From a virus: a stretch of 45,912 nt of DNA. The translations under genes and the position numbers were made by a program. Below the pieces are notes generated by a model, which had not been told where the DNA came from, ran no database searches, and worked only from the letters and a program-made list of their open reading frames with translations. The DNA is taken from positions 1 to 45,912 of IMG/VR virus record IMGVR_UViG_3300007539_000039; one strand, 5' to 3'. Of this stretch, positions 20,331 through 37,578 are shown one piece after another. How positions within the stretch are numbered: position 1 is the stretch's first letter; each line of letters starts with the position of its first letter.

Positions 20331-20364
20331 CCTCACAGCAGTGCATTGACGCTGCTTGACTCCG
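20331..20364 (+). repeat. early leader repeat, copy A
   Basis: First copy of the CAGCAGTGCAT leader. It runs straight into the ATG at 20365 and is the only copy among A-F without an upstream terminator, so it probably heads the rightward early transcripts. Confidence 0.65.
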
Positions 20365-20544
20365 ATGACTCGCCCCTTCATCGCTGCGCTGATTGCCGCT
20401 CCCGTCCTCGTGATGGCTGGCATTCACACCGCTGTCGCCCACCTCGACGCAGCAACACGCCGTCAATGCGCTGAGCAGGCTTGGCCAGTTCACCAGCATG
20501 CTGCGCACATGGAATACTGCCGCGTCTACATCGGCGCGCGTTGA
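20365..20544 (+). CDS. small exported protein
   Basis: 59 residues starting directly at the leader repeat. Residues 1-26 form a signal-peptide-like hydrophobic segment (PFIAALIAAPVLVMAGIHTAVA). The mature part is short with two cysteines (RRQC, EYCRVY) that could form a disulfide outside the cytoplasm. Function unknown; first gene of the early arm. Confidence 0.65.
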   Translation: MTRPFIAALIAAPVLVMAGIHTAVAHLDAATRRQCAEQAWPVHQHAAHMEYCRVYIGAR

Positions 20545-20557
20545 CCCAGCAGACAGA

Positions 20558-20594
20558 AGCCCTCACTCCGTTCTCTCGGGGTGGGGGCTTTTTC
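20558..20594 (+). terminator. intrinsic terminator T1
   Basis: AGCCC...GGGCT stem with internal CAC/GTG pairing followed by TTTTT. Its 3' arm GGGGTGGGGGCTTTTT is shared with T9 and nearly with T3 and T4. Confidence 0.75.
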
Positions 20595-20600
20595 GTTGAA

Positions 20601-20634
20601 CACTCACACAGTGCGTTTGCGCTGCCTGACTTCG
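20601..20634 (+). repeat. early leader repeat, copy B
   Basis: Differs from copy C at only a few positions and ends at the ATG at 20635. Confidence 0.65.
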
Positions 20635-20808
20635 ATGGCCAACTCCGCACAACTCCAGGCCGCACTTGATGCCGCCGATCGCGCTCGCATCGCCGATGAC
20701 GAGCCCACCTGGGAAGAGCTGCTTGATCACCTCAACGCTCTGGCCCAGGACGAGGCGGCTGCAGCCGACGCGGACTACTGGGCTCGCGAGTTCTATCCCA
20801 TCGCCTAG
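20635..20808 (+). CDS. small acidic protein
   Basis: 57 residues, Ala/Asp/Glu-rich, helical (QLQAALDAADRARIADDEPTWEELLDHLNALAQDEAAA). No cysteines or membrane segment. A one-gene cassette between T1 and T2. Small acidic early proteins often inhibit host enzymes, but there is no direct evidence here. Confidence 0.6.
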   Translation: MANSAQLQAALDAADRARIADDEPTWEELLDHLNALAQDEAAAADADYWAREFYPIA

Positions 20809-20813
20809 CCCAT

Positions 20814-20850
20814 CAGCCCTGCTCCCAGCACGGGAGTGGGGCTGTTTTTA
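20814..20850 (+). terminator. intrinsic terminator T2
   Basis: CAGCCC/GGGCTG outer stem with CTCCC/GGGAG inner stem, then TTTTTA. Five bases after the stop at 20808. Confidence 0.75.
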
Positions 20851-20855
20851 TGTCC

Positions 20856-20889
20856 CTTCACAGCAGTGCATTCGCGCTGCCTGACTTCG
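20856..20889 (+). repeat. early leader repeat, copy C
   Basis: Consensus-like copy: CAGCAGTGCATTCGCGCTG then CCTGACTTCG and the ATG at 20890. Confidence 0.65.
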
Positions 20890-21036
20890 ATGTTCAACAC
20901 CATCACTCGCTTCGCCGTCCGCTACCCGTTCACCTACCTCGGGCTCTGCGCAACAGGCGGCCTCGTGATCCGCTGGTTCTGGTGCGGCCAGGACATCTGG
21001 CGCTTCATCAACCCGATGGCGCCGCTCTTCGCCTGA
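20890..21036 (+). CDS. small membrane protein
   Basis: 48 residues. One likely membrane segment (about 13-33, PFTYLGLCATGGLVIRWFW) flanked by basic and aromatic residues. One-gene cassette between T2 and T3. Could be a holin-like or envelope-modifying protein; size alone does not decide. Confidence 0.6.
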   Translation: MFNTITRFAVRYPFTYLGLCATGGLVIRWFWCGQDIWRFINPMAPLFA

Positions 21037-21061
21037 CACCCCCTTCAGATTTCTGCCTCCC

Positions 21062-21095
21062 GGCCCTCACTCGCGCGCGCGGGTGGGGGCTTTTC
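21062..21095 (+). terminator. intrinsic terminator T3
   Basis: GCCC..CAC paired with GTG..GGGC around a CG-repeat loop, then TTTT. Near-identical in frame to T4. Confidence 0.7.
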
Positions 21096-21100
21096 TATTG

Positions 21101-21178
21101 CCCTCTTTCAGCAGTGCATCTGCGCTGTCTGACTGACGGCGCGCGGTTCTTTCGCCCCGGGCCTCCCGGGTTATCGCG
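21101..21178 (+). repeat. early leader, copy D, with 5' UTR hairpin
   Basis: Core CAGCAGTGCATCTGCGCTG is followed by GACGGC, GGTTCTTTCGCCC and a CCCGGG-CCT-CCCGGG hairpin (21156-21170), 8 nt before the ATG at 21179. Shares this long form with copy E. Confidence 0.65.
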
Positions 21179-21451
21179 ATGACGGAAGGCACTCTCTACC
21201 GTCTCAGCCAGCAACTCCGCCTCCTGGCGCGCGCTGGCATTGCCCTCGACCAAGAGGGCCGCAAGCTTCACGGCGAGATCAACGCCGAAGTCGAAGCCGC
21301 TCGGCTTCAGATCGAGGAGTTCATCGACCAACTGCTTGATGGCCATGGCCTCGCGCCCGGCCAGCAAGCCCACGTCACCTGGTGCCAAGAGCTCGCCCAG
21401 CTCAACCGCCCAGCCATACGCCAGCTCGAGCTCGAAGTCTGCCCCTTCTGA
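21179..21451 (+). CDS. helical early protein
   Basis: 90 residues, fully helical: YRLSQQLRLLARAGIALDQEGRKLHGEINAEVEAARLQIEEFIDQLL reads as a continuous coiled coil. Unrecognised. One-gene cassette with a structured leader. Confidence 0.65.
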   Translation: MTEGTLYRLSQQLRLLARAGIALDQEGRKLHGEINAEVEAARLQIEEFIDQLLDGHGLAPGQQAHVTWCQELAQLNRPAIRQLELEVCPF

Positions 21452-21465
21452 GCTCGGACTTTTCT

Positions 21466-21500
21466 CAGCCCTCACTCGCGTCTGCGGGTGGGGGCTTTTT
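21466..21500 (+). terminator. intrinsic terminator T4
   Basis: AGCCCTCACTCG pairs with CGGGTGGGGGCT, followed by TTTTT. Confidence 0.75.
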
Positions 21501-21507
21501 CATTGCC

Positions 21508-21580
21508 CTCCAACAGCAGTGCATTCGCGCTGTCTGACGACGGCACACGTTCTTTCGCCCTGGACCAACCAGGCCGCAAC
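21508..21580 (+). repeat. early leader, copy E, with 5' UTR hairpin
   Basis: Core CAGCAGTGCATTCGCGCTG, then GTTCTTTCGCC and a CCTGG-ACCAA-CCAGG hairpin (21559-21573) at the same place as the CCCGGG hairpin of copy D; stem bases differ but pairing is kept. Confidence 0.65.
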
Positions 21581-22096
21581 ATGGCAAACGCCACCAAAGC
21601 CACCCTCGAAGCACGCATCGCTGAGCTCGAGGCCCAACTCGCTGCCTCCAGCAGCACAACAGATCCCCGCGAAGCCGGCATGGTCCGCCTCGTCGGCATG
21701 CTCAAAGCTGTCAAGGACATCTCCCGCAACGGCGGGAAGTTCACCGTCTGCGCCATCCTCACCAACTCCACCACCGACAACCGCGGCGGCCAGGAGACCC
21801 GGATCGATCTGCCCATCGACTCGATCATCGCCACAGACAACGGCGTTGACATCGCTACCCAGATCTGGGACATCGCCCAGCAGACTGAGTGGGCACGCGT
21901 AGCCATCTCCGGCTACTGGACCGTCTTCGGGGAGGTCACCCGCAACGACCGCGGCTACCCCGTCGCACACCGGCGCCAGCTCCGCGCCCAGCGCATCGAG
22001 GTCCTCAACGCCAAGCCCTTCGGCGAGGAGCGGGCCATCACCCCCGAGGTGGTCCAGCCCTACGCCGAACCCACCGCAGAAGAGATCCCCTTCTGA
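21581..22096 (+). CDS. early protein with possible OB-like core
   Basis: 171 residues. Residues 1-28 are a coiled-coil helix (TLEARIAELEAQLAASSS). Residues ~35-150 are strand-rich (KFTVCAILTNSTTDNRGGQETRIDLPIDSIIA; WARVAISGYWTVFGEVTRNDRGYPVAHRRQLRAQRIEVLNA), a pattern compatible with an OB fold that binds single-stranded nucleic acid. The acidic C-terminus ends in EEIPF, reminiscent of the DxxPF-like acidic tip of SSB proteins. A DNA-binding role is plausible but not shown. Confidence 0.65.
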   Translation: MANATKATLEARIAELEAQLAASSSTTDPREAGMVRLVGMLKAVKDISRNGGKFTVCAILTNSTTDNRGGQETRIDLPIDSIIATDNGVDIATQIWDIAQQTEWARVAISGYWTVFGEVTRNDRGYPVAHRRQLRAQRIEVLNAKPFGEERAITPEVVQPYAEPTAEEIPF

Positions 22097-22102
22097 GCCC
22101 CA

Positions 22103-22137
22103 TCGCCCCACTCGCTCGCCGGGTGGGGCTTTCTTCT
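22103..22137 (+). terminator. intrinsic terminator T5
   Basis: GCCCCAC/GTGGGGC perfect stem, then CTTTCTTCTT. It lies 8 nt after the stop of the 171-residue gene. Confidence 0.7.
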
Positions 22138-22162
22138 TGTCAACCATTACCAAGCACGGCCT

Positions 22163-22330
22163 GTGGACCTGCGCCTCAAACTCAACCCTGACGAGGCCCT
22201 GGCTCTTCGTGATGCCATGGCCCTCTCCCTCAGCCACCGCATGGATACAACCCTCGCTCCCATCTGGGACGAGGTCGTTGACTTCATCCACAACTACGAG
22301 TGCCTTACGCACGAACCCGCGGAAGTCTGA
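22163..22330 (+). CDS. small early protein
   Basis: 55 residues with a GTG start (an in-frame ATG occurs at codon 19). Amphipathic helix LRLKLNPDEALALRDAMALSLSHRMD followed by TLAPIWDEVVDFIHNYE. No family recognised. The cassette lacks the CAGCAGTGCAT core. Confidence 0.6.
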   Translation: MDLRLKLNPDEALALRDAMALSLSHRMDTTLAPIWDEVVDFIHNYECLTHEPAEV

Positions 22331-22467
22331 CCTCAGTGCTATCCGCCTGAGGCATATTCGTATCCGCGTTCTTTGTCCTGTCAGGGCCGGGGCAGGCAAC
22401 AAGCCCTATATCCTCGGCCCGCAGGATTTTCATCTGTCCTATCGTCCTTCAACCCATCTCGACCTCG

Positions 22468-22698
22468 ATGCGCTATCTACTCCCCCTCGCTCTTCTGGCC
22501 CTCGCTCCTCTGCCTGCAGGCGCAATCGCTCGCAGCTCTGATGCATCATGCGCATCATCTGCAGCAGATCAACAGCTTGTCGCGCAGGGGCGCTGCTACC
22601 AGACAGCGTCCTACCTCAACCCCAACGCGCTCTACTGCCAGCAGACCGGGGAAGACCAGTTCGGTCGTCCCATCTGGCTCTGCTGTACTCCCTACTGA
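22468..22698 (+). CDS. small secreted Cys-rich protein
   Basis: 76 residues. Residues 1-19 are a signal peptide (RYLLPLALLALAPLPAGA) with a good AGA-type cleavage site. The mature part has five cysteines (DASCASS, GRCYQT, YCQQT, WLCCTPY), likely in disulfides in the periplasm or outside. The 137-nt leader contains a CCTCAG/CTGAGG hairpin and a GTTCTTTGTCC piece related to other leaders. A superinfection or envelope role is speculation. Confidence 0.65.
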   Translation: MRYLLPLALLALAPLPAGAIARSSDASCASSAADQQLVAQGRCYQTASYLNPNALYCQQTGEDQFGRPIWLCCTPY

Positions 22699-22740
22699 TC
22701 CTCCGCCCGTAGGCATCCCTCAAAATTCCACCTGCTGGCA

Positions 22741-22777
22741 CCCCTGCCCCGCTCGGTTCTTCCGGGTGGGGCTTTTT
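22741..22777 (+). terminator. intrinsic terminator T6
   Basis: CCCC..CGG pairs with CCG..GGGG around TTCTT, then CTTTTT. Confidence 0.75.
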
Positions 22778-22780
22778 CTT

Positions 22781-22833
22781 TGCCCTCCTGCAGCAGTGCA
22801 CCGGAGGGCCTTTCTTCGTTCTTTCGCCCCGTC
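22781..22833 (+). repeat. early leader repeat, copy F
   Basis: CTGCAGCAGTGCAC followed by CTTTCTTCGTTCTTTCG and CCCCGTC before the ATG at 22834. It defines the second conserved block (TTCGTTCTTTCG) shared with copy G. Confidence 0.6.
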
Positions 22834-23154
22834 ATGCGCAACACACTGATCACCATCGCCGCCTGGAGCGTCGCGATCGCCCTGGTCCTCTGGCAACGCG
22901 CCATCTGGCCCGGGCTCAAGACCTTCCTGCCCGGACTCGAAGACCTGGTCGCTGATATCCACTCCGGCGCGCAACCTCCCGCCCCCGCTCGAACCACTCA
23001 ACCCGTCACGCCTGCCGGGGAGAGGGAACCGCAACCCATCGCGGAATCGGCAGTGGTCGAGACCTACGTCATCGAGCGCAAAGTCCCAACTCCTAAGCGC
23101 GCTGCTCGTCCCGTCCCGAAGCGCGCAGCACAGCCCCTCGGCTTCGCCTCCTGA
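22834..23154 (+). CDS. N-terminally anchored membrane protein
   Basis: 106 residues. Residues 4-25 form a membrane anchor (TLITIAAWSVAIALVLWQRAIW). The rest is Pro/Ala/Arg-rich and probably extended, ending with a basic repeat (TPKRAARPVPKRAAQP). This could be an envelope-spanning or spanin-like protein, or bind nucleic acid through the basic tail. No family recognised. Confidence 0.6.
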   Translation: MRNTLITIAAWSVAIALVLWQRAIWPGLKTFLPGLEDLVADIHSGAQPPAPARTTQPVTPAGEREPQPIAESAVVETYVIERKVPTPKRAARPVPKRAAQPLGFAS

Positions 23155-23166
23155 TCCCTTTCTCTC

Positions 23167-23182
23167 TGTAAACCTGCTTACA
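23167..23182. promoter_or_regulatory. operator-like inverted repeat
   Basis: TGTAA-ACCTGC-TTACA, a perfect 5-bp palindrome 5 nt before the ATG at 23188. A regulator site or RNA hairpin masking the start is possible. Confidence 0.35.
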
Positions 23183-23187
23183 CTGCC

Positions 23188-23421
23188 ATGGTTCTCACTC
23201 AGTACACGTCCCAGCGCGAAGTCCTCCTCTCGGTCCGCGGCACACCCGATCAGCTCGAGCCCATCGGCCTGATCCTCGAGCAGCTCTTCCCGGGCAACGT
23301 CATCGTCAGCTCCGACGAGGAAGACGACCAAGAGCTTGACGACAGCCAGATCGAAGTGCTCGAGGCCATGTACGAGCGCACTCTTGAGGAGAGATACGCC
23401 TGGCCTGCTCCTGGTTTCTGA
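23188..23421 (+). CDS. acidic early protein
   Basis: 77 residues: strands (VLTQYTSQREVLLSVRG), a helix (LEPIGLILEQLF) and a strongly acidic stretch (SSDEEDDQELDDSQIEVLEAM). No family recognised. The acidity suggests a protein-binding or DNA-mimic role, which is conjecture. Confidence 0.6.
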   Translation: MVLTQYTSQREVLLSVRGTPDQLEPIGLILEQLFPGNVIVSSDEEDDQELDDSQIEVLEAMYERTLEERYAWPAPGF

Positions 23422-23441
23422 CCCCTGCCGCAATCCACGAC

Positions 23442-23624
23442 ATGCCATTCCAACTCACGATCGGAGCAATCAGCTTCTTTGCAACGCTCTTGGAGCAGGC
23501 AGAGGAAACCCAGTCGATCTGCGATGACGTCGCCATGTGGTGTGACGCAAAGCCGCACATCGAGGAGCTCTGGCAGCTCTATGCAGAGCAACTGGAGTCG
23601 GTCAAGCGCGCCGCTACCCACTGA
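23442..23624 (+). CDS. small helical protein
   Basis: 60 residues, helical throughout (ISFFATLLEQAEETQSICDDVAMWCDAKPHIEELWQLYAEQLESVKRAA), two cysteines. Follows its neighbour by 20 nt in the same cassette. Unrecognised. Confidence 0.6.
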   Translation: MPFQLTIGAISFFATLLEQAEETQSICDDVAMWCDAKPHIEELWQLYAEQLESVKRAATH

Positions 23625-23632
23625 AACCCAAG

Positions 23633-23663
23633 CCCCCCGGCTCCGCACGCTGGGGTTTTCACT
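23633..23663 (+). terminator. intrinsic terminator T7
   Basis: CCCC-GGC pairs with GCT-GGGG around a short loop, then TTTTC. Shorter than the other terminators. Confidence 0.6.
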
Positions 23664-23681
23664 CCTTATTATCTGGGATCA

Positions 23682-23849
23682 ATGCAACTCTTCCGCACCC
23701 TCAACGCTTCCGACGAGACCACATTCCGCGCCTGGGCTCGTCAGAACTACGAACCCTTCACCGACATCTCTGGCACCTGGCACCCTGTCGTTCAAGACGA
23801 ATGCCGCCGGATCAACGCCGAGGCTGGCAGCGAGTACACACCTGCCTGA
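23682..23849 (+). CDS. small early protein
   Basis: 55 residues (MQLFRTLNASDETTFRAWAR...), polar with a short helix (FRAWARQNYEPF) and a Trp-containing turn (ISGTWHPVVQDEC). Coding is supported by codon pattern and the start just after T7. It resembles small phage proteins of unknown function with an ARxNYxP core. Confidence 0.55.
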   Translation: MQLFRTLNASDETTFRAWARQNYEPFTDISGTWHPVVQDECRRINAEAGSEYTPA

Positions 23850-23865
23850 TACTCCACATCCCTCT

Positions 23866-23889
23866 CAATGTGTTGAAACCCTGACATTG
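23866..23889. promoter_or_regulatory. operator-like inverted repeat
   Basis: CAATGT and ACATTG, 12 nt apart, end 2 nt before the ATG at 23892. Could be a binding site or a start-masking hairpin. Confidence 0.3.
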
Positions 23890-23891
23890 CA

Positions 23892-24266
23892 ATGATGCAC
23901 ACTTCCGCCGCCGGGGGCACTCTTCCGGCGAATCTTCATCCCCTCGCGATCGTCAGCCAGGGAGGCTTCTCCGAGGGCTGTCTCCGAGGGTTCTGCCGAA
24001 CGACCTTCGCGTGCATGGTCGCGACGCTGGGCCAGCCGCATCTGGAAGACATCGATGGCAAAGTCAACGTTGAGTGGACCTTCCACTGCGCTGATGGGAC
24101 AACATTCAGTGTCTACGACTGGAAGCAATCCGCGATCCCAGTCGGCCCCTACGACTGGCACATCGGCGGCAATTCTGATCGAGCCCTGGAAGCCTTCACG
24201 CGCCACACAGGGCTCCCCACAACCCAACTCACATACAACCGCGCATACGATTATGCATACTCCTGA
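23892..24266 (+). CDS. conserved phage protein
   Basis: 124 residues. The central part, KVNVEWTFHCADGTTFSVYDWKQSA followed by YDWHIGG, matches a family I know from many phage genomes with a VxxEWxxxFxDGxxxxIYDxK...WHIGG pattern; its function is unknown. A second ATG lies at codon 2. The C-terminus overlaps the next gene by 14 nt. Confidence 0.7.
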   Translation: MMHTSAAGGTLPANLHPLAIVSQGGFSEGCLRGFCRTTFACMVATLGQPHLEDIDGKVNVEWTFHCADGTTFSVYDWKQSAIPVGPYDWHIGGNSDRALEAFTRHTGLPTTQLTYNRAYDYAYS

Positions 24267-24450
24267 TACGCTTCACGTCGAAGGGAAGCCTCTCGAGAAG
24301 ATCTTCATCGTCGGCAGCCTTGCCCTCGACTCCAACATCCATCTCGCCGCTGAAGCACGCGTTCTGCTTGACGTGGCCGCTTCGGTCTCAGACTGCGCCA
24401 AGCTCACCAAGGACATGCGTGCCACAATCCTCGGCGCCGATCTCTCGTAG
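24253..24450 (+). CDS. small early protein
   Basis: 65 residues from an ATG inside the previous gene. EKIFIVGSLALDSNIHLAAEARVLLDVAASVSDCAKLTKDMRATILGADL has an alternating strand-helix pattern. Unrecognised. Ends 10 nt before the convergent minus-strand pair. Confidence 0.6.
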   Translation: MHTPDTLHVEGKPLEKIFIVGSLALDSNIHLAAEARVLLDVAASVSDCAKLTKDMRATILGADLS

Positions 24451-24459
24451 TCGCCCCGA

Positions 24460-24717
24460 CTAGAGAGCTCTCGGTATCAGTGGAGCGGCATAGGTCTCCG
24501 GTGGCTGCACAGAACCGGTGGCAACGTACATCGGGTCACGCATCAGTCCATCGATGCGCAGTTCTCCAACCTGGGACCTCGGCATCTCCATCAACCTACG
24601 GAGGGGTTCAGCCCTGAATCCCTCCCTCAGCTCTCTCGGATCGATCCCCAGCCGGGACCCGGCCATGATCGTCGGGAAATCGCTATCCACCTCAAACGAG
24701 CTCGTTATTGCGCTCAA
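24460..24717 (-). CDS. virion-like protein, second gene of antisense pair
   Basis: 85 residues if the TTG at 24717 is used (an ATG at 24666 would give 68). Mostly helical with a Pro-rich C-terminus (SVQPPETYAAPLIPRAL). It overlaps the previous minus-strand gene by 26 nt, so it is presumably translated from the same antisense transcript. No family recognised. Confidence 0.5.
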   Translation of the reverse strand: MSAITSSFEVDSDFPTIMAGSRLGIDPRELREGFRAEPLRRLMEMPRSQVGELRIDGLMRDPMYVATGSVQPPETYAAPLIPRAL

Positions 24718-25177
24718 TCTCAGCTTGCTGCCCTTGCTGCATGTAATCCATCAGCGCCACAAGGCCTTGTCCTGCTGCGGTTAGGCCGGCCACCGTGCCG
24801 CCGCCGATCGCGCCGTAGGTCGCTACCTGGCCAGCGCGGCTCATCGCATCCGTCCCCGACAACATGTCGTTCAGGCGAACCTGCAGATTAGGAGCGGTTT
24901 GCGCAGCCGCCTGGCCATACAGAGCATCTCGCTTGCCCTGCGCACCACGAGCACGGCTTTTCAGTACGGACATGTAATCGTCCGGCTGGCCTTCCATGCG
25001 ATCGGCAATCGCTGCAGCCACACTTGCAAGATCAGGATTCGCGGCGCCCATCCGCTGGGACAGATCATCCCGTACCGCCTGAATCTGTTGCTTCCGAGCA
25101 GCCATCGCTCGCTCAGCCATGGACTGGCGGACGGCTTCGTCCATGCCCTGAATTTTTGCGCCGATGCCGCCGAACAT
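24692..25177 (-). CDS. internal virion-like protein, antisense island
   Basis: 161 residues. Residues 1-115 are charged helices (MAERAMAARKQQIQAVRDDLSQRM). Residues ~118-140 are a Gly/Ala-rich hydrophobic segment (ATYGAIGGGTVAGLTAAGQGLVALM), and a Q/E-rich end follows. The architecture is that of the late genes at 12769-15749 rather than of its early neighbours, and it has the late-type element. It is probably a displaced virion gene transcribed late, against the early direction. Confidence 0.65.
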   Translation of the reverse strand: MFGGIGAKIQGMDEAVRQSMAERAMAARKQQIQAVRDDLSQRMGAANPDLASVAAAIADRMEGQPDDYMSVLKSRARGAQGKRDALYGQAAAQTAPNLQVRLNDMLSGTDAMSRAGQVATYGAIGGGTVAGLTAAGQGLVALMDYMQQGQQAEIERNNELV

Positions 25178-25205
25178 GGCTGCGAGTGCTTACTTCGTTG
25201 AACTC

Positions 25206-25212
25206 ATTCTAG
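25206..25212 (-). promoter_or_regulatory. late-type element CTAGAAT
   Basis: Minus-strand CTAGAAT, 28 nt before the ATG at 25177, back to back with early leader copy G. Confidence 0.5.
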
Positions 25213-25229
25213 TTGGGTTCATCTTTGAC

Positions 25230-25279
25230 CTCTTACAGCAGTGCATGTAAGTGGTCTCACTTCGTTCTTTCGTTTCATC
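25230..25279 (+). repeat. early leader repeat, copy G
   Basis: ACAGCAGTGCAT then CACTTCGTTCTTTCG, ending at the ATG at 25280. No terminator precedes it on the plus strand, but a divergent antisense gene does. Confidence 0.6.
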
Positions 25280-25654
25280 ATGGAAATCAACCTCGGCCCC
25301 ATCTCCGCTCGCTTCTACTCCGGCAACAACTGGACCCACGCCGAATTGGCTTTCGTCTCCAACCGCAACGGCGGCATGGCTCGCCGTGAAACCGCAGTCA
25401 GTGCCGGCTTCAAGTCCGATCACCTGATCGATGTGGTTGGCACGGACAATCCAGCCGATAGCTTTGAGTGCCCGGAAACCGGCACCCTCTACTTCGGCAA
25501 GATCGTCCAGTCCCCCACGGGCGTTTACACGATCTCAGCCAAGGAGGTCTACACCAAGGCTCTCTACTCCAAGGCCGTCAAGCAAGGCCTTGCTGCAGCC
25601 GAGACCGCAACCGAGGCTGTAGCACCTGTTACTGCCGAGCCGGCCAAGGCCTGA
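25280..25654 (+). CDS. beta-rich early protein
   Basis: 124 residues. Residues 1-95 alternate as strands (INLGPISARFYSGNNWTHAELAFVSNRNGGMARRETAVSAGF; GTLYFGKIVQSPTGVYTISAKEV), and the last 25 are Ala/Glu/Pro-rich. No family recognised. A one-gene cassette bounded by leader G and terminator T8. Confidence 0.65.
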   Translation: MEINLGPISARFYSGNNWTHAELAFVSNRNGGMARRETAVSAGFKSDHLIDVVGTDNPADSFECPETGTLYFGKIVQSPTGVYTISAKEVYTKALYSKAVKQGLAAAETATEAVAPVTAEPAKA

Positions 25655-25662
25655 GCCGACCC

Positions 25663-25701
25663 TGCCCCGGTAGGCATCACGCCCGCCGGGGCTTCCCTTT
25701 T
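25663..25701 (+). terminator. intrinsic terminator T8
   Basis: GCCCCGG/CCGGGGC 7-bp stem with a 15-nt loop, then TTCCCTTTT. Confidence 0.7.
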
Positions 25702-25741
25702 CGCCAACATCAGTCACAATACGCAAGCCCCGCCTTGCACC

Positions 25742-25951
25742 ATGCGTGATGACCTCGATCTTCGGATCCACCCTCTGGTTGCTCTCCGTGCTGCAACGGC
25801 TGAGCTCCTGGAGGAAGCCCGCAAGGAACTCCGCGCTGGCTCCCTCTCCCAGGACCGGCACAGCGTTGCTCGCATCGAGCGGCAACTGGCGTCCTTTGAC
25901 CTCCACATCCAGCGGTCCCGGCGCTCGCTATCTCGTGCGACGCACCGCTGA
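25742..25951 (+). CDS. small helical protein
   Basis: 69 residues, helical and basic (ALRAATAELLEEARKELRAGSLSQDRHSVARIERQLASFDLHIQRSRRSLSRA). First of a four-gene run ending with the Gp157 homologue and its follower. Unrecognised. Confidence 0.6.
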   Translation: MRDDLDLRIHPLVALRAATAELLEEARKELRAGSLSQDRHSVARIERQLASFDLHIQRSRRSLSRATHR

Positions 25952-26117
25952 CACCAACCTCTACTCGATCTACATCCGTGACACCCGCACGACACTCACC
26001 TGGCGCTGCGACTTCTACACGCAGCACGAACGCAATACCTACCTCAACCAGCTCCGCTCAGGCACCACCGATCTCGTTCCGCAAATCCTCGTCCACCCCG
26101 ACCATGCCCTCCGCTGA
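25935..26117 (+). CDS. small strand-rich protein
   Basis: 60 residues from a GTG that gives a 17-nt overlap with the upstream gene; a TTG at 25896 would add 13 residues. Pattern NLYSIYIRDTRTTLTWRCDFYTQHERNTYLNQL suggests a small beta domain. Its end overlaps the Gp157-like start by 14 nt. Confidence 0.55.
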   Translation: MRRTADTNLYSIYIRDTRTTLTWRCDFYTQHERNTYLNQLRSGTTDLVPQILVHPDHALR

Positions 26118-26673
26118 GAACCCCAAGGGCGAGGGAGCATCCTCCCTCTACGCGCTAGGCATCCAGGCCCAGGACATCGCCGGCGAGATTGCCCTGGCCG
26201 CTGAGCTCCTCGACGGCGACCCCGAACACGAGGAGACCGCTGTCGCTCTGATCGAGACCTACCTCGAAGCGCAGGGGCACACGATGGCCCTGATCGAATC
26301 CAAGGCAGACAACATCTGCCGCTACGTCGATCACCTCAGTGCCGTGGCTCAGTTCCGCAAGGAGCAAGCCAAGCGCTTGGCCGACCTTGCCGCCGAGGAC
26401 GAGCGCAGAGCCCAGCAGCTCACGGACTACATGCTCAAGGTCTTGACCACGCTTTATCCGGAGCAGCTCAAGTTTTCACTGCCAACCCACGAGCTGCGGT
26501 CCCGCAAGTCAGAGGCCGTTGAGATCGATGACGAGGACATGATCCCCGATGACATGTTCCGCGAGAAGGTCACCCGTTCACCCGATAAGAGCGCCATTAA
26601 AGCCGCGCTCAAGGCCGGCCAAGACATCGTCGGCGCTCGCCTCGTCTCCCGCACCAACTGGACCATCAAGTAA
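26104..26673 (+). CDS. Siphovirus Gp157 family protein
   Basis: 189 residues. Helical N-terminal two-thirds with TYLEAQGHTMALIESKADNICRYVDHL, then RKEQAKRLADLAAEDERRAQQLTDYMLKVL, matching the coiled-coil core of Gp157 (PF05565). The C-terminal signature is nearly complete: IDDEDMIPDDMFREKVTRSPDKSAIKAALKAGQDIVGARLVSRTNWTIK. Gp157 members lie in replication/recombination regions next to SSB-type genes; a Streptococcus thermophilus phage member was linked to phage resistance when expressed. Molecular role unknown. Confidence 0.88.
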   Translation: MPSAENPKGEGASSLYALGIQAQDIAGEIALAAELLDGDPEHEETAVALIETYLEAQGHTMALIESKADNICRYVDHLSAVAQFRKEQAKRLADLAAEDERRAQQLTDYMLKVLTTLYPEQLKFSLPTHELRSRKSEAVEIDDEDMIPDDMFREKVTRSPDKSAIKAALKAGQDIVGARLVSRTNWTIK

Positions 26674-26693
26674 CCCGCATCCCACATCAACCA

Positions 26694-26918
26694 ATGCACG
26701 CAACTCAAATCGCCATGGCCGACTTCCAGACCTTCCTGGCTTACCGAGGCCGCACTGCAGATGCCATGCGCCGGCACGGCGGGGGCTTCGTCTCCTGCCT
26801 GGCCAGCGCACTGACTCGCGCCGACCAGAACAACGCCCGCAAGATTTACGACACCTGGCCGGAGATTGTCCGCGACTTCGGTCCAGGCTCTCGCTTCTTT
26901 GAGGCCACACCTCAGTGA
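26694..26918 (+). CDS. small early protein
   Basis: 74 residues (67 if the ATG at 26715 is used). Helical, basic, with FQTFLAYRGRTADAMRRHGGGFVSCLASALTRADQNNARKIYDTWPEIVRDFG; similar LASALxRADxxNxxKIxxxWPE blocks occur in small phage proteins of unknown function. Last gene before leader H. Confidence 0.65.
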   Translation: MHATQIAMADFQTFLAYRGRTADAMRRHGGGFVSCLASALTRADQNNARKIYDTWPEIVRDFGPGSRFFEATPQ

Positions 26919-26935
26919 ATCGCGTTGTTTCATGG

Positions 26936-26988
26936 CCACATACAGCAGTGCATGCGCGTGGCCTTTCTTCGTTTTCCTCTATCTGTTC
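26936..26988 (+). repeat. early leader repeat, copy H
   Basis: ATACAGCAGTGCATGCGCG, then GGCCTTTCTTCGTTTTC, ending at the ATG at 26989. No hairpin terminator is visible in the 17 nt between the upstream stop and this copy. Confidence 0.6.
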
Positions 26989-28063: not shown

Positions 28064-28074
28064 ATCACCTCACC

Positions 28075-29491: not shown

Positions 29492-29506
29492 TCCTCACCA
29501 ACATTC

Positions 29507-30411: not shown

Positions 30412-30412
30412 C

Positions 30413-31514: not shown

Positions 31515-31523
31515 CTATCACTC

Positions 31524-31556: not shown

Positions 31557-31593
31557 AGCCCCTGCTCCGTTCACTCGGGGTGGGGGCTTTTTA
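31557..31593 (+). terminator. intrinsic terminator T9
   Basis: AGCCCC pairs with GGGGCT, with a CTCGGGGTGGGGGCTTTTT 3' half like T1. It has no plus-strand gene directly upstream, so it may catch readthrough or act as a cassette relic. Confidence 0.65.
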
Positions 31594-31594
31594 C

Positions 31595-31636
31595 GTGCAC
31601 ATTTTCATCGGTGCATTTGCGTTTCCTGTCGCTCTT
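31595..31636 (+). repeat. divergent leader, copy I
   Basis: CGTGCACATTTTCATC then GGTGCATTTGCG before the ATG at 31637. The GTGCATTTGCG part matches other copies; the upstream half instead resembles copy J. Confidence 0.5.
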
Positions 31637-32233: not shown

Positions 32234-32808
32234 CTGACACCCCTGAAATCCCAGATAGCGTCTCACCCGAGATGCTCGACAGTTTTCTGCGCAATCGCAA
32301 CCCGTTGCCCACCAGCGAGCTGATACCCGCACTGAATCTCGGGGGTGAATCCGGAGGCCCTTGCGACCTCCAGTTCGCCATCTCTCAGATCATTGAACGA
32401 TCCACGCTCGGCGCCAGTCTTCTTCAGCGCCTGGTTGCCTCGATCTACCTGTTGGCTCAGATCGAGGACTCGTTCTCCGCTCGTCTGGAGGATCTCATGC
32501 TCGAGCATCCTCCCTATGACGAGATGACTGGCCACGAGCAACAGATCGCTGGCAACTTCCTGCGCTCGCATCTCATCGCCCTGCGCGTCAGTCTCCAGCA
32601 AATGGAGCAGCTCCTCGCTGAGATCAGCATGCCCTACTACGACATGCGCGCCAAGACCCTGATCCGGGACGTCTTCAAGGGACGTCCCAGGTCCCTGCGC
32701 GACTTCCGCTCTCACATGCTGATCTCAAGCGAGTTACTCGATTCGCTGCAGATCGAGCGCGATGCCGTCACAACCTACCTCGACCAGATTCAACCTCAAA
32801 CACCATGA
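32230..32808 (+). CDS. helical early protein
   Basis: 192 residues, GTG start set by the 4-nt overlap. Helical, with QIIERSTLGASLLQRLVASIYLLAQIEDSFSARLEDLM and NFLRSHLIALRVSLQQMEQLLAEISMPYYDMR. Partner of the upstream gene; ATGA coupling to the DUF932 gene. Distantly similar in pattern to the 144-residue protein at 42345, but not clearly related. Confidence 0.6.
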   Translation: MTDTPEIPDSVSPEMLDSFLRNRNPLPTSELIPALNLGGESGGPCDLQFAISQIIERSTLGASLLQRLVASIYLLAQIEDSFSARLEDLMLEHPPYDEMTGHEQQIAGNFLRSHLIALRVSLQQMEQLLAEISMPYYDMRAKTLIRDVFKGRPRSLRDFRSHMLISSELLDSLQIERDAVTTYLDQIQPQTP

Positions 32809-33794
32809 CCAACCTCACTGAAACCGATCGCAAGCTCTTCCGCGGCACCGCTGCTGAAGTCCTGCCCTTCATGAGCAACGAGGAAATCCTCGCCTCCATC
32901 GGCTGCAACTTCAACGTCATTCGCCGCCCCGCTGAATCCGGCGGGCGTTCCTACAGCGACTGCCAGCTCTGGCTGCGTGATGACACCCAGGACATGCTCG
33001 GCTTCTTCGGCACCAAGCGGCAGATCATCCAGCCCGGCACCTTCGTCGACTACTTCCGCAGCTTCTGTACCTCTGCCGACAAGCAGATCAACTTCGACGT
33101 GATCGGCTCCTACAACAACGGGCGCACCCTCTATATGGGCGCCAAGCTGACCGGCAATAACGCTGCTGTCCTCAGCGCCGGCGGGGGTCTGAACATCTCC
33201 CGCCCAGGACACAGCGCCTACATCCCCAGTGAAGACCGCACTGATCACTGGCTGATCCTCACCGAGTCCTTCGGTGAATCGCTGCGCCCCCGCGTCACGG
33301 TCCTCTCCTCGGAGCTGGTTTGTACCAATGGACTAGCCAAGCGCGTCACCGAATGCGAGGCCAAGCTCAGCCACTACTCGGCGATGAGCGCTGACATCGT
33401 TCACGCCGTCCTCGATCACGCCATGCGCCAATGCCGCGCCTACGACCGCATCAAGGAGCGCCTGATCGAGACTCCGATCTCGATGGATACCGCCCGAGCT
33501 GCACTCCGTCAATTCTTCGATGACGAAGACGGCAAGACCAGCACCGTCAAGCGCCTCGAGCAGATCTACGCCTCGGATCTGATCGGCGGCCAGCTCGACA
33601 CCCGCACAGCCAATGCCTGGCGTCTGGCCTCGGCCGTCACCGAATACACCAGTCACGCCCGGGTTCGCAACGAAGAGACCGCCTTCCGCTCCCAGCTCGA
33701 AGGCTCCAGGGCTCGCACCGCCAACAGCTTCATGCAGTTCCTCGAGGAGCAGTTCCTCGACACCTCGACCCTCCCCCAGCTCGCTACTGCCTGA
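32805..33794 (+). CDS. DUF932 phage/plasmid-like protein
   Basis: 329 residues. The plan is that of DUF932: N-terminal strands, MLGFFGTKRQIIQPGTFVDYFRSF, the central HWLILTESFGESLRPRVTVLSSELVCTNGLAKRV (vxxxRxVCxNgl), then long C-terminal helices. Members are frequent on phages and plasmids near replication genes; the function is unsettled. Most conserved product in this sub-region. Confidence 0.8.
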   Translation: MTNLTETDRKLFRGTAAEVLPFMSNEEILASIGCNFNVIRRPAESGGRSYSDCQLWLRDDTQDMLGFFGTKRQIIQPGTFVDYFRSFCTSADKQINFDVIGSYNNGRTLYMGAKLTGNNAAVLSAGGGLNISRPGHSAYIPSEDRTDHWLILTESFGESLRPRVTVLSSELVCTNGLAKRVTECEAKLSHYSAMSADIVHAVLDHAMRQCRAYDRIKERLIETPISMDTARAALRQFFDDEDGKTSTVKRLEQIYASDLIGGQLDTRTANAWRLASAVTEYTSHARVRNEETAFRSQLEGSRARTANSFMQFLEEQFLDTSTLPQLATA

Positions 33795-33799
33795 TCATC

Positions 33800-34183
33800 A
33801 TGCGTCGCCGCATCTCCATCCGCAAAGAAGACCGCATCTGGAATCTTCGCTGCCAGGGCTACACCTACGACACCATCGCCCGCATCACCAACGTCAGGCC
33901 GTCCAGCGTGACGGAGGTTTTGCGCAGGGTTCGGCGGCGGCCTCCCTTCGAGGAGGACCCCATTCGCCGCGGGAGGAGATGCGGCTTTCTTGACGACTAC
34001 CAGATCAACGACATTCGCTTCAGCCGAGCCCGCGGTGAAAAATACGCTTCAATCGCAGCTCGCTACCACGTCACGCCTCAGGCCATCGTGGCGATTTGCG
34101 TCGGCCGGACCTACAGGCAACCGGAATACACAGCCGACGAGGGCTACCCCTTCTCCTTCGGCAATCGCCTCCAGGTCGCTTGA
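33800..34183 (+). CDS. protein with two helix-turn-helix units
   Basis: 127 residues. Two tandem HTH-like segments: RIWNLRCQGYTYDTIARITNVRPSSVTEVLRRVRRR (~11-46) and INDIRFSRARGEKYASIAARYHVTPQAIVAICVGRTYR (~69-106). Highly basic. The pairing resembles bipartite DNA-binding domains of resolvases and transposases without a catalytic part. Probable phage transcription regulator. Confidence 0.7.
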   Translation: MRRRISIRKEDRIWNLRCQGYTYDTIARITNVRPSSVTEVLRRVRRRPPFEEDPIRRGRRCGFLDDYQINDIRFSRARGEKYASIAARYHVTPQAIVAICVGRTYRQPEYTADEGYPFSFGNRLQVA

Positions 34184-34192
34184 TCTCTATCC

Positions 34193-34221
34193 GGGCGCAG
34201 GTTTGCTTGCGCCCTTCCTTC
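34193..34221 (+). terminator. hairpin terminator T12
   Basis: GGGCGCA/TGCGCCC perfect 7-bp stem, then TTCCTTCC, ending 1 nt before the ATG at 34223. The T-tract is interrupted, so termination may be partial or the hairpin may act on translation. Confidence 0.55.
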
Positions 34222-34222
34222 C

Positions 34223-34417
34223 ATGGCATTCAACAAACTCAAACCCACCAGTGATGACGACTACCAGGCCTACTCCAACTACATCGCCAAGCTTGCCGCC
34301 GCTGCCGCGCCGAACGATCCGCCGGTCACGCCCTTCCGCATCTGGTTCCTGTGGCGGCATGGCGCTTTCCCGGCGGACTTGCTCATCGGCAACGCCCCAT
34401 CGTCAACCGCGGCGTAG
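34223..34417 (+). CDS. small early protein
   Basis: 64 residues. DDDYQAYSNYIAKLAAAAAPNDPPVTPFRIWFLWRHGAFPADLLIGN: helix, then an aromatic strand. Unrecognised. Starts directly after hairpin T12. Confidence 0.55.
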   Translation: MAFNKLKPTSDDDYQAYSNYIAKLAAAAAPNDPPVTPFRIWFLWRHGAFPADLLIGNAPSSTAA

Positions 34418-34433
34418 CCCATCACGCCTCCGG

Positions 34434-34547
34434 TTGGTTCAACTCGCGGCGCTCTTTGCCAGCAGTCTCATCCTGCTAAACACTCCCTGGCCTGACCGCT
34501 ACACCGAGGGCCCGCCACCAGCGAACGGACTGCTGACCGGACCCTGA
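34434..34547 (+). CDS. possible tiny membrane protein
   Basis: 37 residues from a TTG start (MVQLAALFASSLILLNTPWP...). One short hydrophobic helix then a Pro-rich tail. There is no ribosome-binding site, so this is a weak call. Confidence 0.3.
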   Translation: MVQLAALFASSLILLNTPWPDRYTEGPPPANGLLTGP

Positions 34548-34550
34548 GGA

Positions 34551-34742
34551 TCACTCCACGTCTGATCCGCTCAGCACGCCCCAATGGCCTGGCTTGCCAC
34601 TGCACTCGTAACGCACACCGCGGTATACGCAGGCAGCGCTTCCCAGGCCGTCAACCTGCATCTGCCGGCGGCGCACCACACGATCGAATTCACGCTCCAG
34701 GCTCAGGCGCCGGAACATATCCAGGTTCAGAGGTTCCATCAT
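34551..34742 (-). CDS. small antisense protein
   Basis: 63 residues (62 from the second ATG). PLNLDMFRRLSLEREFDRVVRRRQMQ is a basic helix, followed by a strand part with two Cys (ACVYRGVRYECSGKPGHWGV). Minus-strand single gene inside the early arm. A second minus-strand frame (34608-34824 region, 44 codons from an ATG near 34822) overlaps it and cannot be excluded. Confidence 0.5.
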   Translation of the reverse strand: MMEPLNLDMFRRLSLEREFDRVVRRRQMQVDGLGSAACVYRGVRYECSGKPGHWGVLSGSDVE

Positions 34743-34813
34743 CGAACAGAGAGTCAGCGTCCCCGTCGTCTGACGCCTGGTTCTGCAGCCTGTAAGGCCC
34801 GACGATTTCCCTC

Positions 34814-34820
34814 ATTCTAT
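34814..34820 (-). promoter_or_regulatory. late-type element ATAGAAT
   Basis: Minus-strand ATAGAAT, 71 nt before the start at 34742. Spacing is longer than elsewhere, so confidence is lower. Confidence 0.35.
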
Positions 34821-34822
34821 TC

Positions 34823-35023
34823 ATGCTGCATCTCACTCCCTTCCTGCAAGCCAAAGCACGCATTGATCGCCTCGCTCGCTACTCTTCCCGGATCCGCTCT
34901 CTTGCTCGTCGTTATCCGGCACTGACCTATCCACTACTCCCGCCGCATGCCCTGCTGCTATGGCTCACCCGACGGGAGCAGAACAAGATCTCGCGCCTGG
35001 TTGAACGCAAGCAACGCCGCTGA
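34823..35023 (+). CDS. small basic protein
   Basis: 66 residues, very basic with an amphipathic N-terminus (MLHLTPFLQAKARIDRLARYSSRIRSLARRYP), a Pro/Leu stretch and a basic end (RREQNKISRLVERKQRR). TGAATG spacing to the next gene. Confidence 0.55.
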   Translation: MLHLTPFLQAKARIDRLARYSSRIRSLARRYPALTYPLLPPHALLLWLTRREQNKISRLVERKQRR

Positions 35024-35557
35024 ATGGCCAACAAACCATCCCGTCAACGCAAACCGCGCTACAAGGCGCCTGATTGCCCACATTGCTGCAGCCAGTACAC
35101 CTTCGCGCTGCGCTCCAAAATCCGATCCAATGGCACCCGCCTGCGCCGGCTTGAATGCCACGCCTGCCAGCACCGCTGGACTGAGGCCGATAACTCTCTC
35201 CCTCTGCGGCGCGGGGGCGTTCCCTCCAAACGTGGCCACGCCATCACCCCGGACGAGGTCAAGCTGATTCTCACTTCGGAGCTCAGTAACTACAAGCTCG
35301 GCAAGCAACTGCAGATTCACGCCAGCACTGTCAGCAAGATCCGTGTTGGCCGCATCCATCGCCGCATCCACCCGGAGATTCCACGTCGAGACCAGTTCAA
35401 GGTCCTGCAACTGGTCCGCTCCTGCCTGCAATGTCAGCACTGGGGCCACGGACGCTGCCGCTACGACTTCCCCGACCCACTGGAAGAAGGGCCGTCCTTC
35501 GCGCAGGACTGCGACCTCTTCTCTGACTCCACACAACCCGCTTCAATCGCCGCCTGA
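35024..35557 (+). CDS. zinc-ribbon + HTH + Cys-cluster regulator
   Basis: 177 residues. Residues 18-52 hold CPHCCS...LECHACQHRW, a zinc ribbon like those before transposase and transcription-factor HTHs. Residues 70-125 (TPDEVKLILTSELSNYKLGKQLQIHASTVSKIRVGRIHRRIHPE) are an HTH. Near the C-terminus CLQCQHWGHGRCRYDFPDPLEEGPSFAQDC has four spaced Cys that could hold a second zinc or an Fe-S cluster. Combination suggests a DNA-binding, possibly redox- or metal-sensing, regulator. TGAATG to the upstream gene. Confidence 0.7.
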   Translation: MANKPSRQRKPRYKAPDCPHCCSQYTFALRSKIRSNGTRLRRLECHACQHRWTEADNSLPLRRGGVPSKRGHAITPDEVKLILTSELSNYKLGKQLQIHASTVSKIRVGRIHRRIHPEIPRRDQFKVLQLVRSCLQCQHWGHGRCRYDFPDPLEEGPSFAQDCDLFSDSTQPASIAA

Positions 35558-35561
35558 ACCC

Positions 35562-35738
35562 ATGATCCCGGTTCCTCCCGATTACCGCCGCACCAGACGC
35601 GTTTCGATCGTCATTTCCGGTTTGCTGCATGACCGCCTGATCCTGCGCTCCAACACCGAAGGTCGCTCACTCTCCAACCTCTGCGCTTTCTTACTGGAAA
35701 ATGCCCTGAGCGATGAACAAGGCAGGGCGCAGCGTTGA
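35562..35738 (+). CDS. ribbon-helix-helix regulator
   Basis: 58 residues. RRVSIVISGLLHDRLILRSNTEGRSLSNLCAFLLENALS fits the CopG/Arc fold: a basic beta strand, then two helices with a Gly/Ser turn. These dimers bind operators. Last gene of its cassette before T10. Confidence 0.7.
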   Translation: MIPVPPDYRRTRRVSIVISGLLHDRLILRSNTEGRSLSNLCAFLLENALSDEQGRAQR

Positions 35739-35762
35739 GCCCACAACCCAACACATTCCACC

Positions 35763-35794
35763 AGGCCGTCTCGCACTCGCGGGGCGGCCTTTTT
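35763..35794 (+). terminator. intrinsic terminator T10
   Basis: AGGCCG/CGGCCT stem with inner CGC/GCG pairing, then TTTTT. Confidence 0.75.
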
Positions 35795-35795
35795 G

Positions 35796-35817
35796 TCGTG
35801 CACTTCTTCATCTGTGC
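35796..35817 (+). repeat. divergent leader, copy J
   Basis: CGTGCACTTCTTCATC then TGTGC, merging into the ATG at 35818. Closely related to copy I. Confidence 0.5.
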
Positions 35818-36096
35818 ATGTACCCACGTCCATCCTCCGTTTCCATCCGCCTCAGTGCGCAACAAGCCGAGACCATCTACTGGGAATTGCTCGGCATCCT
35901 GGAGCACTATCGCGGCCTGAAAAACAACCTCGAGCCTGACGACGAGGGGGCGATCCTCTCGGCCATCACGCAGCTTGAGACCGGCATCAAGCGCGCAGAA
36001 GCGATTGCAGACAGCCAGCTCGAGCAACTGCGTCGCTGCTATCTCGATGCCCAGGTCAAGCGCGGCAACATCACCGGCACCCAGGAGGACGCATGA
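35818..36096 (+). CDS. helical early protein
   Basis: 92 residues. RLSAQQAETIYWELLGILEHYRGLKNN then ILSAITQLETGIKRAEAIADSQLEQLRRCYLDAQVKRG form a long helical hairpin. ATGA coupling to the Gp88 gene. Confidence 0.6.
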   Translation: MYPRPSSVSIRLSAQQAETIYWELLGILEHYRGLKNNLEPDDEGAILSAITQLETGIKRAEAIADSQLEQLRRCYLDAQVKRGNITGTQEDA

Positions 36097-36869
36097 GCAT
36101 GCTCCTGAAGTTCAACCACGGCAATGCCAAGCTGCCCGACAGCACCATGACCTTCGCGCTGCCGGCGGGTCACACGTGCCCGGGCGCACTGCATTGCCTC
36201 TCCAAGGCTGACCCCGAAACGGGCAAGATCGCCGACGGTCCCTGCACGATCTTCCGCTGCAGTGCCGCCAGCGAAGAGACCCGGCCCTCCGTTCGTAGCT
36301 CCCGCTGGCACAACCAGCGCCTGCTGGCTCAGCTCAACACCGGTGGCATGGTCGACCTGCTCGACATCTCCCTCCGTGCGCACCGGTTGACCTTCACCGA
36401 GCGGGTCCGCTGGTTCACCTCCGGCGACTGCTTCAACGTTCACTTGCGGGATGCCCTCATCGAGATCGCCCGCAGGCACGACGATCTGCTGTTCTACCTC
36501 TACAGCAAGAATCTACCCCTCTGGCTTGAGAACGGCAGCCCACTCCCTCTGCCGGACAACCTGGTCATGACCGCGTCCTGGGGTGGTCGCTACGACTTCC
36601 TGCTGGCAGACGGCCTGTTCCCCCGCACGGCACGGGTGGTCAACACGGAAGACGAGGCGTACACTCTGGGCTTGCCCATCGACTTCACCGACGCCTACGC
36701 CTACCAGCCCACACCGACCCACTTCGCTCACCTGGTCCATGGCACGCAACCAGCAGGCTCCGAGGCCGGACGAGCCATCCGGGCGCGGCGCAACGCCGGC
36801 AAGTTCTCGGGCTATTCACGCAAAACCCAACCCCATGTTCATCCACTACCCCTCCCTGCCGGCTCCTGA
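36093..36869 (+). CDS. Gp88 family protein
   Basis: 258 residues. The opening LLKFNHGNAKLPDSTMTFALPAGHTCPGALHCLSKADP, then CTIFRCSAASEETRPSVRSSRWHNQRLL, is the signature of the phage gene product 88 family (PF17338), including two Cys pairs. The middle continues the family pattern (VRWFTSGDCFNVHLRDALIEIARRH; LFYLYSKNLPLWL). Members are common in actinophages and cyanophages; function is unknown. Ends inside the next gene. Confidence 0.85.
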   Translation: MSMLLKFNHGNAKLPDSTMTFALPAGHTCPGALHCLSKADPETGKIADGPCTIFRCSAASEETRPSVRSSRWHNQRLLAQLNTGGMVDLLDISLRAHRLTFTERVRWFTSGDCFNVHLRDALIEIARRHDDLLFYLYSKNLPLWLENGSPLPLPDNLVMTASWGGRYDFLLADGLFPRTARVVNTEDEAYTLGLPIDFTDAYAYQPTPTHFAHLVHGTQPAGSEAGRAIRARRNAGKFSGYSRKTQPHVHPLPLPAGS

Positions 36870-37011
36870 TCCCGCGATCGAGCTACGCCACGGGGTCGAA
36901 CTCCGTGACATCATCAAAACCTGCGCAGACAATGACGTTCCCTTCCGATTTGCCTACAAACACAGCGGACGCTTCCGCTACTACAGCGACCAGTGCCGAT
37001 CCAGTCGTTGA
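36835..37011 (+). CDS. small early protein
   Basis: 58 residues (MFIHYPSLPAPDPAIELRHGVELRDIIKTCADNDVPFRFAYKH...). Overlaps the Gp88 gene by 35 nt and the next by 80 nt; the frame reads naturally but no family is known. Confidence 0.55.
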   Translation: MFIHYPSLPAPDPAIELRHGVELRDIIKTCADNDVPFRFAYKHSGRFRYYSDQCRSSR

Positions 37012-37324
37012 ACTCCGGCTGCACTCCAGTCAGATCCTGGCCTTCGGGGCGATTCTGCCCCATGAGGCCGCGGGGCTCCTGCTCGGCGAGTATTCGCCTA
37101 CGCGTCAACTGAACCTTGCCACCGGTCGCTGCTGGAGTGCCTGGCAATGGCAGCAAGTCCTTAGGGATCACTACGAACGCATCACAGGTCCCACACCAGC
37201 AACCTGTCCACATGCACCCGATACCTTGAACACGAACACAACTCCACCCCATGCCAGCGCCTCTGGACACAACCTTCATCCCCACGGTTCGCAGTTACCT
37301 CCTCGGGCGCACGGTTCAGCTTGA
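36932..37324 (+). CDS. possible early protein
   Basis: 130 residues from the ATG at 36932. Convincing only in its middle (VVELRLHSSQILAFGAILPHEAAGLLLGEYSPTRQLNLATGRCWSAWQWQQVLRDHYERI); both ends overlap neighbours and are low-complexity. The start may be wrong. Confidence 0.45.
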   Translation: MTFPSDLPTNTADASATTATSADPVVELRLHSSQILAFGAILPHEAAGLLLGEYSPTRQLNLATGRCWSAWQWQQVLRDHYERITGPTPATCPHAPDTLNTNTTPPHASASGHNLHPHGSQLPPRAHGSA

Positions 37325-37517
37325 CCAGCTCGAGGACCTCGTTACCAAGGACCTTGAGCTCCTGAACATCGAAACCTTGGCTGCGCTCCAGGAAGCACGC
37401 CACCAGCACAGCCTGATTGAAGACAAGCAATCAGAGGACGCTGGCAGCGAGTACAAGCGCATCAAGGTCAACGGCTACTTTCAGGCCGCCATTCAACTGG
37501 AACTGAACCGACGTTGA
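37251..37517 (+). CDS. helical early protein
   Basis: 88 residues. TVQLDQLEDLVTKDLELLNIETLAALQEARHQHSLIEDKQSEDAGSEYKRI is a coiled-coil-like helix. Unrecognised. Ends 5 nt before T11. Confidence 0.6.
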   Translation: MPAPLDTTFIPTVRSYLLGRTVQLDQLEDLVTKDLELLNIETLAALQEARHQHSLIEDKQSEDAGSEYKRIKVNGYFQAAIQLELNRR

Positions 37518-37522
37518 CTGCT

Positions 37523-37557
37523 CGCCCGGCTCCTGCTCAGGGGTCGGGCTTTTCTTT
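37523..37557 (+). terminator. intrinsic terminator T11
   Basis: GCCCG/CGGGC stem with partial inner CTCC/GGGG pairing, then TTTTCTTTT. Confidence 0.65.
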
Positions 37558-37578
37558 TGTCCATCCGGTGCATTCGCC

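Follow-up and report, generated by a model that had tools for sequence, protein, structure and literature searches.

What is the short repeated sequence that stands in front of so many early genes of the virus recorded as IMGVR_UViG_3300007539_000039: a promoter, or a signal carried in the 5′ leader of the early messages? The whole 45.9-kb viral record was analyzed (hereafter, the window); late genes occupy the minus strand as far as 19364, the plus strand carries the early genes from ~20330 onward, and a non-coding divergent region separates the two arms. The nearest named relative is Synechococcus phage S-EIV1, with ~50% identity to the window's terminase and one structural protein, and the same two proteins show 67–99% identity to many Integrated Microbial Genomes/Virus (IMG/VR) contigs, so that, by its proteins, the window phage is S-EIV1-like. 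The repeat turned out to be a 21-nt element, mostly found directly behind an intrinsic terminator, and the best single reading, for which our judgement is evenly poised, is that the two together make up a terminator plus 5′-leader RNA module, akin to the promoter-early stem-loop (PeSL) cassettes of T4-type phages, that is read by a putative factor.

The element follows the grammar TG-NN-C-N5-CA-N-C-N-GTGCAT, the upstream half of which (TG at −10/−9, C at −6) had been missed by the sequence-only reading that drew attention to the repeat. Its core, CAGCAGTGCAT, occurs with no more than one mismatch seven times on the plus strand, all within 20336–26943, and only twice on the minus strand, both times in coding sequence, the chance level in Markov-shuffled sequence being ~1 per strand. 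A position weight matrix (PWM; score ≥14) finds nine copies on the early strand, 0 on the opposite strand and 0 in the reversed controls, with cores at 20336, 20861, 21109, 21514, 22791, 25236, 26943, 31606 and 35809. A repeated leader in the early arm is therefore real, directional and far above chance. All on the plus strand, the strong copies comprise the first element of the early arm at 20326–20346 (core CAGCAGTGCAT, PWM score 29.1), those at 20851–20871 (PWM score 29.9) and 26933–26953, and the representatives of families F4 (21099–21119; hairpin of ~−22 kcal/mol, z −4.6), F0 (21504–21524), F5 (22781–22801; a GTGCAC variant within a co-varying 11-bp hairpin), F2 (25226–25246; behind a divergent gene, and itself in a co-varying hairpin), F1 (31596–31616; perfect TGCAC/GTGCA arms) and F7 (35799–35819). 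Two decayed copies are recognizable by sequence: 20597–20616, previously listed at 20601 as an ordinary copy, has lost one base and reads GTGCG, and 37558–37573 is a degenerate, shortened form lacking the inter-block spacer. Of the divergent forms proposed earlier, those at 31595 and 35796 are strong matrix copies and the one at 37561 stands as the shortened form, whereas the sequence at 45217 does not match the element. The GCGCTG..CTGACTTCG block, formerly taken for the 3′ part of the repeat, is confined to one leader group and is replaced by other sequence in relatives, and copies A–C, said to run unchanged into the ATG, are indeed equal in length but differ by a few substitutions.

Conservation was assessed in a set of 26 related contigs, 17 of which carry the element, as had been anticipated for the core in related phages. 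The matrix scores 146 hits in them, all on the early strand; with two that look like chance set aside, ~144 copies remain. The element-bearing contigs span 41–62% GC, the AT-rich relatives (41% GC) retaining CAnCAGTGCAT intact, and the element is retained before orthologous genes (families F0–F5, with F1 kept across 12 contigs). In two contigs, G018 and G013, GTACA replaces GTGCA in all copies, mostly with T at −8; this half-site pairing (S1), in which GTGCA→GTACA goes with C→T at −8, had a covariation score attained in 0/500 shuffles and couples the two halves of the element, and a core switched across a whole genome implies a putative trans-acting reader. Strict orientation, a place at the starts of early units, the fixed TG..C/CAnCnGTGCAT grammar and genome-wide core switching are thus properties of the element as observed. 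The extra contigs gathered by pattern search also encode relatives of the S-EIV1-like group, with two exceptions (L184, which has a terminase match only, at ~23%, and L197, with no match within its 4 kb).

How the element is placed relative to terminators and start codons is similarly regular. The terminator search found 27 intrinsic terminators, compared with 12.1 ± 3.4 in shuffles, and the earlier claim that most copies follow one holds for those at 20601, 20861, 21109, 21514, 22791, 31606, 35809 and 37561, which are preceded, on the plus strand, by terminators at 20566–20593, 20814–20849 (a 13-pair stem followed by five T), 21062–21095 (13-pair stem), 21467–21500, 22746–22777, 31559–31592, 35763–35795 (12-pair stem) and 37524–37557, respectively, but not for the copies at 20336, 25236 and 26943, before which no terminator was found. 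In 138/146 copies, the TG precedes the core by exactly 10 nt, and, among the 117 copies with a T-run, the distance from its end to the TG is 2 nt in 60 and 1–3 nt in 92. The downstream start codon follows the element at 1–60 nt, and none of the 144 element-led genes has a Shine–Dalgarno (SD)-like tetramer at −18 to −4; such motifs precede 94/298 large late-strand open reading frames (ORFs) and 37/276 element-free early genes, against a composition background of 4%, so the absence is supportive only, early genes being SD-poor in general. Attenuation with the upstream terminator is ruled out, as the element lies downstream of it.

That the module marks a boundary at which genes are exchanged can be read from the relatives at base level. 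The order of early cassettes is kept (F3-[variable]-F4-F0-F5-F2-F1-F7), with the variable genes sitting between elements. Cassette F18 is present in G010 and G011 and absent from G024, and the aligned junction falls within GGTGGGGGGATTTTTCATGTCCTCTCTCAGCAGTGCATT, an identical stretch of terminator and leader DNA in two adjacent modules, just what homologous recombination from one module to the other should leave behind; G010 and G011 themselves have in common the first copy's upstream sequence and core, and then continue into different genes. It is thus well supported, by these alignments, that the boundary module is a swappable terminator-plus-leader unit and that crossover inside it adds or removes entire genes, much as the sequence-only reading had supposed when invoking the logic of T4 PeSLs.

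The evidence that the element works in RNA comes from folding. Core plus flanks fold better than flank shuffles do (Stouffer Z −11.8 for n = 86 non-redundant sites; 0.2 for random sites), and most copies, including all GC-rich-clade leaders inspected, form a hairpin from the core and gene-specific flanks, in which the core pairs with an upstream TGCAC arm in F1 leaders and, in most leaders of the F3/F0 type, with a GCGCTGC arm downstream. In F2 and F5 leaders, outer stems flank the core on either side: those of F5 (six rows, one unpaired base having been removed from two of them for the covariation count) are 98.5% paired, with four pairs changed on both sides (0/500 shuffles), and those of F2 (five rows) are 92.7% paired, with A-U/G-C exchange (7/500 shuffles). 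As these co-varying helices span −9 to ~+20, transcription should begin ahead of the core; the RNA thus probably contains the core, and a leader is a likelier role for the element than a promoter. A pseudoknot was rejected as its general fold, since only stem 1 occurs generally, most AT-rich copies lacking stem 2, and the element matches none of the curated Rfam 15 models of riboswitches and other RNA families.

Under the leader reading, the module would be a portable gene boundary of S-EIV1-like phages, in which the intrinsic terminator would close the upstream early gene and the 21-nt element, ~2 nt past the T-run, would open the next early message. The element would act not as a promoter but in the 5′ leader RNA, where a factor encoded or modified by the phage would read the core and so set the translation or stability of early genes that have no SD sequence; the 5′ hairpin would position or protect the core. 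Transcription would come either from a cryptic start of the module's own or from terminator read-through from upstream promoters. Several facts weigh against this. The early arm shows no other visible promoters; presence/absence profiling for a trans-factor returned only four ORFs confined to genomes with the element, and, as none of them has a regulatory domain, did not identify a reader protein; the F2 and F5 alignments are as small as noted; and the lowest-GC copies fold poorly, several with z > 0. Furthermore, the core is invariant whether it lies in a stem or a loop, which is odd for an RNA–protein site and fits a DNA site, and G-U pairs add little to the fold of the element, unlike those of the upstream terminators, so a DNA-level role of the element is possible.

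The most obvious form of such a role, which we judge doubtful and still worth serious attention, is that of a phage-specific promoter to which host RNA polymerase is redirected by a phage factor, the cassette then being, PeSL-like, a terminator plus a promoter. The element does sit behind terminators and divergent genes, at the very points that call for a new transcription start, its sequence is kept regardless of RNA context, and strict orientation and a core co-evolving genome-wide would suit a promoter well. Yet there are no sigma-70 hexamers: two sigma-70 sites were found in the early arm against 3.6 expected from shuffles, none of them inside modules, so that, within the element or ahead of it, sigma-70 promoters do not exceed chance. 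Start codons 1–5 nt past the core would, moreover, need leaderless mRNAs, and co-varying hairpins cover both sides of the core. A dedicated polymerase was not recognized either, whether of the T7/N4 type or of the YonO/multisubunit type: a search of 13 genomes for a T7-like RNA polymerase gave no PF00940 match, with the control being likewise silent, large ORFs lack motif B except in S-EIV1's own DNA polymerase, and no convincing RNA polymerase DxDGD motif was seen. Where the sequence-only reading had left the choice between an unusual promoter and an RNA-level element, these results weaken the former and make the latter the better half. Two observations may be recorded here in their own right. 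A 1076-aa protein of the late (virion) arm, encoded at 16134–19364, has no Pfam, PHROG or PDB sequence match and no motif B, and is not recognizable as a polymerase. In the divergent region before F2, the motif CATTCTA (TAGAATG on the minus strand) at ~25206–25212 is conserved in six relatives (G003, G002, G010, G004, G005 and G007); it is ambiguous, fitting equally well as a candidate −10 of a late minus-strand promoter.

The partial dyad symmetry of the element, both halves of which change together, could alternatively mark an operator or stoperator, i.e., an imperfect DNA inverted repeat (TGYAC-N10-GTRCA) at which a phage regulator blocks initiation or elongation gene by gene, and single-orientation, intergenic sites are what L5-type stoperators look like (PMC9283540); relative G010, moreover, encodes a serine recombinase and a helix-turn-helix (HTH) protein. 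We consider this unlikely, since most copies have a degenerate left half, the variable-sequence co-varying hairpins around the site would be left without a reason, the element is tightly coupled to terminators and start codons, and the profiling revealed no repressor restricted to element-bearing genomes. Hairpin RNA at unit starts, directly past each terminator, would also be expected of a site for nut/put-like antitermination or for RNA processing, if the early genes were transcribed past the terminators into one polycistronic message, a scheme that explains the positions without extra promoters. In known nut/put systems, however, one site per operon suffices, compared with 7–14 copies here, and the element cannot act on the terminator immediately upstream, all of which makes this explanation very improbable in our eyes.

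Set against known systems, the leader module is closest to the PeSL cassettes. PeSLs have a sigma-70-like early promoter, whereas no promoter of the sigma-70 type is found here, its place being taken by the 21-nt element with co-varying hairpins; the window phage is, furthermore, S-EIV1-like and not T4-type (Straboviridae-like). Shared with T4 PeSLs, in so far as Arbiol 2010 and Comeau 2014 are represented in PMC4503421, are the many copies, the terminator stem-loop directly followed by a start module before early genes, and modular shuffling through gain, loss or swap of early genes. The start-associated sequences (SAS/ESAS) of cluster K mycobacteriophages (function unknown; conserved across subclusters) are likewise short, asymmetric, one-orientation repeats just before start codons, sometimes with an inverted repeat and with a lineage-shifting consensus, yet that consensus is the purine-rich GGGATAGGAGCCC, at the translation start (PMC3203893), and not the element described here, which is SD-less (0/144), delimits gene swaps and usually stands behind a terminator. 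Cluster A stoperators resemble it as numerous asymmetric intergenic sites aligned with transcription, but differ in sequence and are 13-mers bound by a known repressor, with no tie to terminators or RNA hairpins (PMC9283540); the halovirus HF2 repeats are also intergenic, virus-wide and conserved in position and orientation, but are archaeal and proven promoters with TATA boxes (PMC8707807). The PeSL principle of a terminator and a start signal serving as a mobile gene boundary would thus have arisen in phages not related to T4; the crossovers can be read base by base, and the start signal seems to reside in RNA instead of in a sigma-70 promoter. As the core has changed genome-wide from GTGCA to GTACA, the hunt for the reader protein can be put to a direct test.

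S-EIV1 itself has no window-type element; seven copies of a different leader, GTCCnnAGCATGACnTTAAACTGC, precede its early genes (KJ410740, loci L098 and L097, minus strand, at 43012, 39528, 38809, 33602, 30513, 29169 and 25919). This leader is an H-type pseudoknot (93.7% paired, eight double-changed cells, 0/500 shuffles), with both crossing stems, S1 and S2, conserved and the free closing pair complementary in 60/74, and one copy precedes the S-EIV1 ortholog of the F21 gene, which is element-led in G015 and G016. The pseudoknot pattern is present in at least 120 IMG/VR stretches (loci include L198–L277) and in named phages of unrelated, very different hosts, and has no match in Rfam 15. It mostly lies 9–37 nt before the start codon, and the stop codon of the upstream ORF lies 4–11 nt before it in 49/70 sites (mode 6), a spacing similar to that of recoding or termination-coupled elements. 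The T4 gene 32 leader pseudoknot, also a phage 5′-leader RNA structure before an early gene, is an analogue of it, but serves a single gene and has another sequence, and the window element consists chiefly of hairpins (PMC3014915). A bolder view, which we put forward tentatively and find rather unlikely, is that the window-type element represents a new phage 5′-leader RNA class with a co-evolving phage factor as its reader, which replaced the widespread, undescribed pseudoknot leader in one lineage, such that each early gene could move together with a terminator and an RNA start signal of its own and would need neither promoter nor SD sequence. S-EIV1 has two more structured repeat leaders on the minus strand, upstream of 43732, 43419, 41408 and 40711: CTGATCCGTCAAAGCGGGT plus a hairpin, and CCCTGGGC...AAGTCCCAGGA.

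Some minor observations concern individual genes and the origin of the virus. The early gene F0 (21581–22096, plus strand) is present in 12 contigs and element-led in each; its protein has no convincing Pfam or PHROG match, and its C-terminus, EEIPF (EEVPF or DEVPF in relatives), may be likened to the C-terminal tip of SSB. A search for a prophage or host matched only archaeal and actinobacterial metagenome-assembled genomes (MAGs). Structural-protein relatives with 69–76% identity (L176–L180) come from MAG contigs assigned to Euryarchaeota and Acidimicrobiales; viral contigs placed in the wrong bin are the probable source of these matches. The near-complete relative G010 encodes a serine recombinase (L100:16466-17743; Resolvase plus a weak zinc-ribbon match), a possible temperate or mobile-element link, and, adjoining it, a protein with a possible NblA-like domain (L100:15556-16152); judging by this weak match and by the kinship with S-EIV1, the host is probably a cyanobacterium.

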